Positions 5,919 through 57,570 of a stretch of DNA of 64,000 nucleotides are shown piece by piece. Origin of the DNA: Haloarcula sp. DT43 (GTDB taxonomy: Archaea; Halobacteriota; Halobacteria; Halobacteriales; Haloarculaceae); NCBI RefSeq assembly GCF_037078405.1, contig NZ_JAYMGZ010000004.1, positions 434,001 to 498,000 on the forward strand, read 5' to 3'. Within the stretch, counting starts at the first letter, position 1, and every line of letters begins with the position of its first letter. Under the pieces are notes generated by a model, which was given only the letters and a program-made list of their open reading frames with translations, searched no databases and had not been told where the DNA came from. Position numbers and translations under genes: made by a program.

Positions 5919-7223
5919 ATGTCAGAGCAAATCCAGCAGGAACTCGACGTCGACAGGTTCACACTGGGACTCGTCGGCCCGGACCAGGAGTGGGCCGGGA
6001 CGGTCGCCGACGGTGGGACCGTTCGCACGCACACGCCGCCCGCGTGCTGGGGACCGATGATAACTCCCGAGTTCCGCGGCGGCCACGAGGTGACACGTCC
6101 CATCCGCGTCGAGAACGCCGAGCCTGGCGATGCCCTCGCCGTCCACATCAAGGACGTTGAGGTGACGAGCGTCGCGACGAGCACGGGCAGCATGGCCGAG
6201 CGCGAGGGCGCGTTCGGGAGCGACCCGTTCGTCGACCACCGGTGTCCGGAGTGTGGGACCGAGTGGCCCGACAGCGTCGTTGAGGGCACCGGCGAGGACG
6301 CGATTCGCTGCGCGGAGTGTGGGGCCAACGCCTCCTCGTTTGGCTTCGAGTTCGGCTACACCGTCGCGTTCGACGATGACCGCTCGGTCGGGCTGACGGT
6401 CGGCCCCGACGGCGCCGCGGACCTCGCGGAACGCGCCGACGAGGCGATGGCACTGCCGGAACACTCCCGGCAACACCCGATTCTGTTGTACAAGCCCGAC
6501 GAGATACCCGGGACGCTCGGCCATCTCCGGCCGTTCATCGGGAACATCGGCACGACGCCGTCGGTGGAGTTCCCCGACTCACACAACGCCGGTGACTTCG
6601 GCCAGTTCCTCATCGGTGCCGACCACGACTGGGGTCTCCCCGACGAAGCGGCGCTGGACGCCCGTACGGACGGTCACCTGGACTCGAACGACGTCCGCCC
6701 CGGCGCGACGCTCATCTGTCCCGTCGAAATCGACGGCGCGGGACTGTACGTCGGTGACCTGCACGCAAACCAGGGCGACGGCGAACTCTCGCTTCACACG
6801 ACCGACGTGAGCGGCCGCACCGAACTCGAAGTCAGCGTCATCAAAGGCCTCGACATCGACGGCCCGCTCCTGCTCCCGAACGAGTCGGACCTGCCGGACA
6901 TCGCCAAACCGTACACGGACGCCGAACGAGCGGCCGGCGACGCCCTCGCCGCCGAACATCAGGTCGACGACGTCGTCGACGCGGCGCCGCTCCAGATTAT
7001 CGGGTCCGGCGCGACCATCAACGACGCCACCGAGAACGCGTTCGCACGCGCCGGCACGCTGTTCGACATGTCGGAGGGCGAGGTCCGAGCGAGATGTACG
7101 TTCACCGGCGGCGTCGAAATCGCGCGGCTGCCCGGCGTCGTGCAGCTCTCGATGCTCGCGCCGATGGACCTGCTCGAAGACCGTGGCCTCGCCGATACCG
7201 TCCGCGAACAGTACGACCTGTAG
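5919..7223 (+). CDS. Acetamidase/formamidase family protein with zinc-ribbon insert
   Basis: 434 aa. The fold-defining segments of the FmdA/AmdA family are present: RTHTPPACWGP near residue 40, PIRVENAEPGDALAVHI near 61-77, GGHEV, GNIGTTPS near 210, HNAGDFG, GATLICPVEIDGAGLYVGDLHANQGDGE near 265-290, and a conserved C-terminal domain. The family hydrolyses small amides such as formamide or acetamide to ammonia and the acid, so a nitrogen-scavenging role is likely. Unusual for the family, residues 109-134 insert a C-X2-C...C-X2-C pair (Cys109, 112, 131, 134) that looks like a zinc ribbon. The gene is monocistronic, with its own TATA-like box. The exact substrate is unknown. Confidence 0.85.
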   Translation: MSEQIQQELDVDRFTLGLVGPDQEWAGTVADGGTVRTHTPPACWGPMITPEFRGGHEVTRPIRVENAEPGDALAVHIKDVEVTSVATSTGSMAEREGAFGSDPFVDHRCPECGTEWPDSVVEGTGEDAIRCAECGANASSFGFEFGYTVAFDDDRSVGLTVGPDGAADLAERADEAMALPEHSRQHPILLYKPDEIPGTLGHLRPFIGNIGTTPSVEFPDSHNAGDFGQFLIGADHDWGLPDEAALDARTDGHLDSNDVRPGATLICPVEIDGAGLYVGDLHANQGDGELSLHTTDVSGRTELEVSVIKGLDIDGPLLLPNESDLPDIAKPYTDAERAAGDALAAEHQVDDVVDAAPLQIIGSGATINDATENAFARAGTLFDMSEGEVRARCTFTGGVEIARLPGVVQLSMLAPMDLLEDRGLADTVREQYDL

Positions 7224-54842: not shown

Positions 54843-56669
54843 ATGTACGAACACGATGTCATCGTGGTCGGCGCGGGTGGCGCTGGCCTCAGAGCGGCGA
54901 TTGCAGCGGACGAAGAGGGTGCAGACGTGGCCCTCGTGACCAAGCTCCATCCGGTCCGGAGCCACACAGGTGCCGCGGAGGGGGGAATCAACGCCGCGCT
55001 GCAGGAGGGGGACTCCTGGGACCTCCACGCGTACGACACGATGAAGGGGTCCGACTACCTCGGCGACGCCCCCGCCATCGACACCTTCGCCAAGGACGCC
55101 CCGGAGGAGGTCATCCAGCTCGAACACTGGGGGATGCCCTTCTCGCGTGAGGACGACGGCCGCGTCTCTCAGCGTCCGTTCGGCGGCCTCTCCTATCCGC
55201 GAACGACCTACGCCGGTGCCGAAACCGGCCACCACTTGCTGCACACGATGTACGAGCAGGCGGTCAAGCGCGGCATCGAGGTGTACGACGAGTGGTACGT
55301 GACCCAGCTGGCGGTCACCGACCACGACGACCCCGAGGACCGCGTCTGTCACGGCTGTGTCGCCTACGACATCAAGTCCGGCGAGATCCAGGGCTTCCGG
55401 GCGAACAACGGCGTCATCCTGGCGACCGGCGGCCTGGGGCAGGCCTTCGACCACACCACGAACGCCGTCGCCAACACCGGCGACGGCTGTGCGATGGCCT
55501 ACCGCGCCGGCGTCCCGATGGAGGACATGGAGATGATTCAGTTCCACCCGACCACGCTCCCGTCGACGGGCGTGCTCATCTCCGAAGGGGTCCGCGGCGA
55601 GGGCGGTATCCTCTACAACGACGACGAGGAGCGGTTCATGTTCGAACACGGCTACGCCAACAACGAGGGGGAACTGGCCTCCCGTGACGTGGTCGCTCGG
55701 GCCGAACTGACCGAGGTCAACGAGGGCCGCGGCGTCGAGGACGAGTACGTCGACCTCGACATGCGCCACCTCGGCGAGGAGCGTATCCTCGACCGCCTGG
55801 AGAACATCCTCCACCTCGCGGAGGACTTCGAGGGCGTCGACGGCCTCGACGAGCCGATGCCGGTCAAGCCAGGCCAGCACTACGCCATGGGCGGCGTCGA
55901 GACCGACGAGAACGGCGAGACGTGTATCGACGGCCTCTACGCGGCCGGCGAGACCGCCTGCGTGTCGCTACACGGCGCGAACCGGCTCGGGGGCAACGCC
56001 CTGCCGGAGCTGCTCGTGTTCGGCGCTCGCGCCGGCCACCACGCCGCCGGGAAGGACATGAAGACCGCCGAGATACAGACCGGCCCCTCCGCAAAGAGCG
56101 AGCCCGGCGACGTCGAGCCGCCGGTCGAGCCCGGCGCAATCGACGCCACCAGCGACGACGTCGCCGCCGACGGGGCGGCCGTCGAGCCGAAGGCGGTGCT
56201 CGAAACCACCGTCGAGCGGGAGCGCCAGCGCGTGGAGGAACTCATCGAGTCCGACGGCATCAACCACGCCGAGGTCCGGGCCGACGTCCAGGAGACGATG
56301 ACCGAGAACGTCAACGTGTTCCGGAAAGAGGACGGTCTGGAGAAGGCCCTGCGGGACCTCCGGGCGGCCCGCAAGGAGTACGAGAACGTCGCCGTCGAGG
56401 ACCCCTCGCGGACCTACAACACGGACCTCATCCACACCATCGAGACGCGCAACATCCTCGACGTGGCCGAGGCCATCACGCTGGGCGCGCTCGCCCGCGA
56501 GGAGTTCCGGGGCGCACACTGGCGCGCCGAGCACCAGGAGCGCAAGGACGACGAGTGGATAAAGCACACGATGCTGGCCTGGAACGAGGGCACCCCCGAA
56601 CTCTACTACAAGCCGGTCATCCTCGAGGGCGACGAGCAGACCTACGAGCCGAAGGTCCGGTCGTACTGA
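54843..56669 (+). CDS. sdhA: Succinate dehydrogenase, flavoprotein subunit
   Basis: 608 aa FAD-binding catalytic subunit of complex II, oxidising succinate to fumarate. FAD motif VVGAGGAGLRAAIAADEEGA at 8-27; the covalent-flavin His in SHTGAAEGGINAAL near 42; active-site FHPTTLPSTGVLISEGVRGE; catalytic Arg region ASRDVVARAELTEVNEGRG; and C-terminal HYAMGGVETDENGETCIDGL, CVSLHGANRLGGNALPELLV. The last third has a haloarchaeal acidic insertion. The gene stands alone with its own promoter rather than behind sdhB. Confidence 0.95.
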   Translation: MYEHDVIVVGAGGAGLRAAIAADEEGADVALVTKLHPVRSHTGAAEGGINAALQEGDSWDLHAYDTMKGSDYLGDAPAIDTFAKDAPEEVIQLEHWGMPFSREDDGRVSQRPFGGLSYPRTTYAGAETGHHLLHTMYEQAVKRGIEVYDEWYVTQLAVTDHDDPEDRVCHGCVAYDIKSGEIQGFRANNGVILATGGLGQAFDHTTNAVANTGDGCAMAYRAGVPMEDMEMIQFHPTTLPSTGVLISEGVRGEGGILYNDDEERFMFEHGYANNEGELASRDVVARAELTEVNEGRGVEDEYVDLDMRHLGEERILDRLENILHLAEDFEGVDGLDEPMPVKPGQHYAMGGVETDENGETCIDGLYAAGETACVSLHGANRLGGNALPELLVFGARAGHHAAGKDMKTAEIQTGPSAKSEPGDVEPPVEPGAIDATSDDVAADGAAVEPKAVLETTVERERQRVEELIESDGINHAEVRADVQETMTENVNVFRKEDGLEKALRDLRAARKEYENVAVEDPSRTYNTDLIHTIETRNILDVAEAITLGALAREEFRGAHWRAEHQERKDDEWIKHTMLAWNEGTPELYYKPVILEGDEQTYEPKVRSY

Positions 56670-56936: not shown

Positions 56937-57149
56937 CTGCTCACACCCCAGTGTCGTCGCCCGGCGGAAAATAAGTTATTGTGATTCCGAAAAGAGACGG
57001 TCCCGAGATGAGCCACCGTCCCGCCGTAGCTGTTGAGACCCGTGGGGCTACCGGCCGACGGGACCGGCTCGCGATATCGGGAGCAGTACGTGCGGAACCA
57101 CCCGGAATCATCACTTACTTGGTTGTCAGGAACGTATCGAAGGTAGCTC

Positions 57150-57251
57150 GGAAGGGTGGCTCAGTGGTAGAGCGCTACCGGCCAACATGCCAGAATCGGT
57201 CGGTGGTTACCCCGCAAAGGGCTCCGCGTGGTTCGACTCCCGCCCCTTCCA
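57150..57251 (+). tRNA. Unusual tRNA-like element (possible pseudo-tRNA)
   Basis: 102 nt with a perfect acceptor stem (GGAAGGG/CCCTTCC, discriminator A), a canonical D-arm (GCTC, loop AGTGGTA, GAGC) and a T-arm that pairs GCGGG/CCCGC around TTCGACT only if T57229 is bulged. In place of a normal anticodon arm, CTACCGGCC pairs with GGTCGGTGG over 9 bp around a 14-nt loop containing TGCCA (GCC, Gly-like). A second hairpin, CCC/GGG, follows like a long variable arm. It matches no standard haloarchaeal tRNA I know and I could not fit a regular archaeal intron. It could be a decayed tRNA-Gly, a transferred tRNA, or a tRNA-like RNA. Confidence 0.4.
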
Positions 57252-57570
57252 CTCCCGCGTGTCGCTGACAGCGGCTGCTGTCCGTTTCTACGCTGGCACA
57301 CCGTTCAGTCGTCCCTGCCGCGACCGGGGAGCCAAGGCTACTTCACGATAGGCGCGACTGTTGACCGGCGTCGTCGAAGCGTCGGGGTGGGAACCGACGC
57401 CTCTCAGGAAGTGGAAAGGTAAGGAATGTGGGGGGTGGGGGTGGTGCGGCACCAGTACGGTGCCTACCCGATACAAGCGGGGTGGCGTACAAAAAACCTC
57501 CGCTGAGATTATCAAAGTCGATATTTGGAGGGGGCCCTGGATATTACGGGTAAGCGTCGGAGACGGGCGG
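57252..57570. other. Intergenic between the tRNA-like element and the TnpB relic
   Basis: No intact gene. A long plus-strand frame crosses the region but its composition is not protein-like until about 57571. G-rich tracts occur at 57430-57450. Confidence 0.35.

Follow-up and report, generated by a model that had tools for sequence, protein, structure and literature searches.

An independent gene for a tRNA-like RNA with a replaced anticodon arm in the class Halobacteria

The tRNA-like gene and its locus

The gene was located in Haloarcula sp. DT43, in the window (the whole stretch of DNA analyzed, 64,000 nucleotides). The Rfam tRNA model (RF00005) matches it with 39.4 bits, above the gathering score of 29 (E = 8.2e-5 over the whole window). 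ARAGORN made no call at this position. The original prediction had described a tRNA-like gene with a canonical acceptor and D-arm and one bulged base in the T-arm. A 9-bp stem carrying a 14-nt loop was said to take the place of the anticodon arm, and a second small hairpin that of a long variable arm. Reading of the sequence, folding, and the Rfam match bore out both the coordinates and this anatomy (Table 1). The stem of the replacement hairpin has 10 bp if the terminal G-U is counted, and its loop reads AACATGCCAGAATC.

Table 1. Features of the tRNA-like gene and its surroundings in the window
Feature	Position	Strand	Evidence or remark
sdhA (succinate dehydrogenase flavoprotein), upstream neighbor outside the RNA	54843-56669	+	Pfam FAD_binding_2 and Succ_DH_flav_C
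Predicted promoter box ATCACTTACTTGG	57110-57122	+	centered ~33 nt upstream of the RNA 5' end; A+T peak across the family
tRNA-like RNA, 102 nt	57150-57251	+	Rfam tRNA match; 82 bits with model R1; conserved in genus and class
Acceptor 5' strand GGAAGGG	57150-57156	+	7/7 pairs
D-arm GCTC-AGTGGTA-GAGC	57159-57173	+	4 pairs, nearly invariant in the family
D-stem, 4/4 bp	57159-57162 with 57170-57173	+	
Hairpin replacing the anticodon arm	57175-57206	+	9-bp stem (57175-57183 with 57198-57206), 14-nt loop; hairpin in all 87 members, covariation in short members
GCCAGA in the loop of the replacement hairpin	57189-57194	+	conserved in Haloarculaceae only
Small variable-arm hairpin CCC-CGCAA-GGG	57211-57221	+	folding (57211-57213 with 57219-57221); arm of 4-5 bp in Halorussus, Haladaptatus, and Natrialbaceae members
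T-arm GCG-U-GG / TTCGACT / CCCGC	57226-57243	+	bulged U at 57229
Acceptor 3' strand CCCTTCC	57244-57250	+	pairs with 57150-57156
Discriminator A73	57251	+	CCA not encoded

Six ORFs near the gene were compared with Pfam. They matched a cupin, DUF7385, a cobyrinate synthase, and a ketopantoate reductase, and two had no match. The TnpB fragment that the original prediction placed beside the gene was not recovered among these six, and no integrase was found among the ORFs tested. An Rfam search gave 40 ordinary tRNA genes in DT43, none with the acceptor of the tRNA-like gene. This list misses some tRNAs that are expected, e.g., tRNA-Trp, and the case against decoding therefore rests on the family and not on the tRNA set of DT43.

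A candidate separate small RNA lies at 57420-57512 on the minus strand. It contains a TTTTTTGTAC-like box, a GGCACC/GGTGCC hairpin (57448-57464), and a C-rich tail, CCACCCCCACCCCCCAC. It is conserved downstream of sdhA in Haloarcula and is also present in two genomes without the tRNA-like gene (G014 and G032).

Distribution and conserved structure of the family

Members were retrieved with R1, a covariance model of the acceptor, D-arm, and bulged T-arm. The original prediction had proposed a search for the same 102 nt in other haloarchaea. Among 391 genomes and 86 genera of the class Halobacteria, R1 recovered the family at E <= 1e-9 from 192 and 46, respectively. Both counts are lower bounds because some divergent members from Halomarina and relatives, whose D-arm is damaged, miss the threshold. 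The copy number was nearly always one per genome. Members at this threshold score ~57-93 bits. The ordinary tRNAs that were identified within the class stay well apart from the family, with at most ~48 bits, and the matches of 39-48 bits in family-less genomes were mostly ordinary tRNAs. A pattern search with the 3' end retrieved homologues from 20 named haloarchaeal genera. Outside the class, the only matches were of 51-54 bits in one family, and all three examined were tRNA-Ser.

A single intact copy is present in 29 of 31 Haloarcula genus mates (78-98% identity). Together with the spread over genera, this is conservation far beyond chance, and it agrees with the argument of the original prediction against long neutral decay. 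The RNA is also present in 13 of 15 Haloferax genomes. Nine genomes in which R1 finds no member (two Haloarcula, two Haloferax, and five others) contain no remnant in the 1.5 kb downstream of sdhA. Degraded copies in relatives, which had been named as evidence against the prediction, were thus not found at the sdhA locus of these nine. About half of the genomes do not have the RNA, so its function is either dispensable or bound to certain lineages.

In Halomarina and relatives (L075, L094, L114, and L236), the D-stem is lost. The D-loop GUGGUA, the acceptor, and the bulged T-arm are retained.

We parsed 90 distinct aligned rows, comprising 87 family members and three ordinary tRNAs; one divergent row (L167) was left unparsed. 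The acceptor stem, D-arm, and T-loop are almost invariant across the family. The acceptor is GGAAGGG/CCCUUCC in 102 of 104 members. In the two others, which are divergent, both strands change together to GGUAGGG/CCCUACC. The RNA has the 7-bp acceptor, D-arm, and T-loop of the tRNA fold. It does not have the regular 5-bp T-stem of a decoding tRNA in any of the 87 members parsed. All 87 instead have 6 nt on the 5' side and 5 nt on the 3' side, with a 1-nt bulge. The T-stem is GCG-U-GG/CCCGC in 75 members, GUG-U-GG/CCCAC in 3, and GUGG-C-G/CCCAC in 9 from Natrialbaceae. The bulge is therefore retained while the flanking pairs change.

The replacement hairpin is far more variable. It has 5-19 predicted pairs and terminal loops of 3-15 nt, mostly 3-6 nt, in the 87 members. 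A 5-bp stem with a 7-nt loop and U33 is not formed in the DT43 sequence or in 86 of the 87 members. L090 alone can form one, and this looks like chance. The 87 members have no anticodon in common. The middle region is more stable than shuffled sequence (mean z of -2.8 in the 87 members). In 20 short members, six pairs are changed on both sides, compared with 1.6 in shuffles; none of 500 shuffles reached this number. When the partner strand was slid out of register, the pairing was destroyed. Four of the two-sided changes are in the replaced anticodon arm, one is in the variable arm, and one is in the T-stem. Comparison of the members shows selection on the predicted cloverleaf.

Members of 79-86 nt have only a hairpin capped by a small loop in place of the anticodon arm. 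We consider it highly improbable that the gene is a relic of an integrated element (a pseudogene or an attachment site) or a decoding tRNA interrupted by one or two introns. Introns are frequent in archaeal tRNAs. However, the short members close the hairpin with a small loop and have no room for a 17-nt anticodon arm plus an intron, so an intron cannot explain the replaced arm. A known intron-containing archaeal tRNA, which the original prediction had named as the counterexample to look for, is for this reason not what the family represents. The fixed T-stem bulge, the covarying arms, and the lack of a remnant at the sdhA locus of the nine gene-less genomes also argue against these readings. 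The gene is neither a product of decay nor an intron-bearing tRNA.

The loop of the hairpin is conserved in one part of the family. CCAG is kept in the loop of 27 distinct sequences from Haloarcula, Halorientalis, Halomicrobium, and a related MAG, nearly always as GCCAGA, and the rest of the hairpin is variable. An unpaired motif kept in this way would be expected of a trans-acting antisense small RNA. Its loop would pair with target mRNAs, and the tRNA fold would serve only for stability and 3'-end processing. However, the loops outside Haloarculaceae are short (3-6 nt) and unrelated, and the invariant parts are the acceptor, D-arm, and T-arm. An antisense RNA is thus a decidedly unlikely reading of the family.

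The discriminator is G in 49 rows and A in 39, and both occur within Haloferax. A variable arm of 4-5 bp is present in Halorussus, Haladaptatus, and Natrialbaceae members. No variable-arm stem was predicted in Haloferax and Halobellus members. These features bear on the most interesting rival, a charged, non-ribosomal carrier of an amino acid. Such a carrier would be charged by an anticodon-blind synthetase (of the SerRS/LeuRS type or a special paralogue), and its amino acid would pass to a transferase, e.g., for surface glycans or lipids. SerRS reads G73 and the variable arm in tRNA-Ser and tRNA-Sec, as reviewed in PMC7609411, and many members have both G73 and a variable arm of 4-5 bp. The full acceptor stem and elbow are conserved, and the extra copy in one genome adjoins a PF13480 acetyltransferase-like gene. 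However, a single fixed amino acid fits poorly with the variable discriminator and with the lack of a variable-arm stem in Haloferax and Halobellus. The main copy has no linked synthetase or transferase. We regard the carrier as unlikely, if somewhat less so than the antisense RNA.

A second tRNA-like type was observed in some Haloferax and two other genera. Its acceptor is GAAAGGG/CCCUUUC, its T-stem has no bulge, and a variable arm is present; a short capped stem occupies the anticodon position. It is found at L233 (5730-5817), L234 (around 6001-6088), L235, and L237. Two of these are labeled tRNA-Arg by ARAGORN.

Promoter, 3' end, and genomic setting

The A+T content of 104 distinct members peaks at -36 to -25, with 0.57-0.64 compared with ~0.36 elsewhere. 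Clade-specific boxes occupy this position: ACCAACGGCTATTTG in Haloferacaceae, TCACATATTTG in part of Haloarcula, and ATCACTTACTTGG in the DT43 window. Comparison across the family shows that the gene has a predicted TATA-type promoter box of its own, ~30 nt upstream. The 40 nt downstream contain TTTT in 25 of 103 members; in an equally long upstream control, the count is 2 of 104.

At 28 loci from 12 genus-level groups, sdhA precedes the RNA on the same strand, at a distance of 50-1010 nt. In Halorussus and Haladaptatus it is near a glmS-like gene, and in Natrialbaceae it adjoins a Rad3-like helicase gene. A polysaccharide-deacetylase-like gene is another clade-specific neighbor. The identities of these three genes were judged from sequence. 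No protein gene accompanies the RNA everywhere among the loci compared; the neighbors vary by clade.

The same-strand position downstream of sdhA in 12 groups would suit a cis-acting t-element of the sdh operon, in which cleavage by RNase P or tRNase Z would set the 3' end of the sdhA mRNA. A precedent exists in a haloarchaeon. Haloferax volcanii has a t-element upstream of 5S rRNA, a tRNA-like structure that is recognized by RNase P and tRNase Z (PMC4326828). The modeled fold of the DT43 RNA would be compatible with such cleavage. The H. volcanii element is a signal inside an rRNA precursor, and the RNA described here is an independent gene elsewhere, a distinction drawn from the descriptions. 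The RNA has its own promoter box. A reverse-strand cupin gene intervenes between sdhA and the RNA in the window, and Halorussus, Haladaptatus, and Natrialbaceae retain the RNA at loci apart from sdhA. These points make a t-element of the sdh operon very unlikely.

Extra copies of the family were observed outside the sdhA locus in Halorientalis (L228 and L125), Halegenticoccus (L090 and L123), and Natrialbaceae (L220). Their settings include the neighborhood of an orc1/cdc6-like gene (on a plasmid in L228), glycosyltransferase-like clusters, and a PF13480 acetyltransferase-like gene.

Arrays of ~100-150-nt units were observed downstream of tRNA-like or ordinary tRNA genes. Each unit ends with the last ~20 nt of the gene (TTCGAATCCC and the acceptor 3' strand). 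Arrays are found at L096, L136, L144, L086, L070, L118, L109, L166, and L168, and after tRNA-Arg(CCU) at L149-L157. They are reminiscent of Escherichia coli rtT repeats or stacked attachment sites. A link between the GCGUGG motif of the T-arm and the array units was dropped, since the units had been selected by a pattern containing this motif.

The original prediction had offered an integration relic, a viral or bacterial origin, and a regulatory tRNA-like RNA, and only the last of these survives. The 3' end is repeated downstream in arrays in several relatives, as at integration sites, and it does seem to serve as a duplication or integration site there. For the gene itself, a relic finds no support: full-length, intact copies with promoter boxes of their own are present in dozens of genera. 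A viral or bacterial origin finds no support either: the chromosomal locus is conserved across many genera, and searches gave no phage match and one partial plasmid match. Two viral contigs have only the T-loop/acceptor 3' end in common with the RNA.

The IMG/VR viral contigs L147 and L148 contain TGGTTCGAATCCCGCCCCTTCCGCCA, and the 5' half of the family is absent from them. In these contigs TGGTTCGAATCCCGCCCCTTCCGCCA is possibly a bacterial attachment site in a tRNA gene.

The existence and structure of the tRNA-like RNA are well supported. We read the locus as an independent gene that is old within the class Halobacteria.

Known tRNA-like RNAs and the proposed role

The tRNA-like domain of tmRNA, the bacterial Y RNA YrlA, and mammalian mascRNA all keep the top half of a tRNA and have either lost the anticodon arm or exchanged it for something else. 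The haloarchaeal RNA differs from tmRNA in having no tag reading frame, a length of 102 nt in all, and A3-U70 rather than G3-U70; ARAGORN reported no tmRNA in the window. Unlike mascRNA, it is not cut from a long noncoding RNA. A role as a Y RNA is unlikely because Ro60 (TROVE, PF05731) is absent from the DT43 genome and present in 8 of 87 haloarchaeal genomes.

The T-stem bulge recalls bacterial selC* tRNA-Cys, which has a bulge at 51a, and the allo-tRNAs are unusual class II tRNAs (PMC7609411). Those RNAs have 8/4 or 9/3 acceptor/T-stems and an anticodon, whereas the haloarchaeal RNA is 7/5 with a bulge and has no anticodon. Another tRNA-shaped RNA is tRNA-Other of Bacillus cereus, a non-translational pseudo-tRNA whose deletion affects gene expression (PMC3399842). 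Its non-translational role is known; for the haloarchaeal RNA such a role is proposed. tRNA-Other has a Trp (CCA) anticodon, occurs only in the B. cereus group, and forms one segment of a larger transcript (PMC3399842). The haloarchaeal RNA, by contrast, has no anticodon, spans an archaeal class, and has a promoter box ~30 nt upstream. In none of the systems compared does the absence of an anticodon coincide with an independent gene that is retained throughout a class. No prior description of the family was found in open-access papers; one article behind a subscription, on tRNA-like elements of Haloferax (Hoelzle et al. 2012, Biochimie), was outside this scope and may mention it.

The reading that we prefer, and to which we give roughly even chances, is that of a stable, non-decoding tRNA mimic. 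It would be processed like a tRNA, stay off the ribosome, and bind a protein that reads the acceptor and elbow. The transcript would be trimmed by RNase P and tRNase Z, and CCA would be added as for a tRNA. The RNA would not decode. The T-stem bulge lies at or close to the expected contact of elongation factor 1A on tRNA, and it may help to exclude the RNA from translation. As a mimic of the tRNA top half, the RNA could titrate, regulate, or scaffold the protein that it binds. This suggestion follows from the conserved parts: they are the ones that RNase P, tRNase Z, the CCA enzyme, the elongation factor, and other proteins that bind the elbow recognize, and the portion that the ribosome reads has been lost. 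The pattern of a conserved top half and a variable bottom hairpin supports it. We infer the specific mechanism, protein titration or scaffolding, from which parts of the RNA are conserved. No partner protein linked by position was found, and the neighbors differ between clades. The replacement hairpin may be a mere cap in most lineages. In Haloarculaceae, the conserved unpaired GCCAGA loop may add a site for antisense pairing or for protein binding.

A bolder and doubtful proposal is that an anticodon-less tRNA was kept across the class for non-ribosomal work only. Such a tRNA would either be charged and pass its amino acid to a transferase reserved for it, or form the RNA core of a new RNP assembled on the tRNA elbow.

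Annotation is likely to miss or misname the family. ARAGORN is silent for many members and mislabels others as tRNA-Gly, -Glu, -Gln, -Arg, or -Val. Across an archaeal class the acceptor, D-arm, and T-loop are almost unchanged, and the gene often occupies the same site in the chromosome and has a promoter box of its own; this implies a partner of the tRNA top half. If it is expressed, the RNA would be a single small gene that could be deleted in the tractable Haloferax or Haloarcula, and it would offer a route to a non-translational function of tRNA in archaea.
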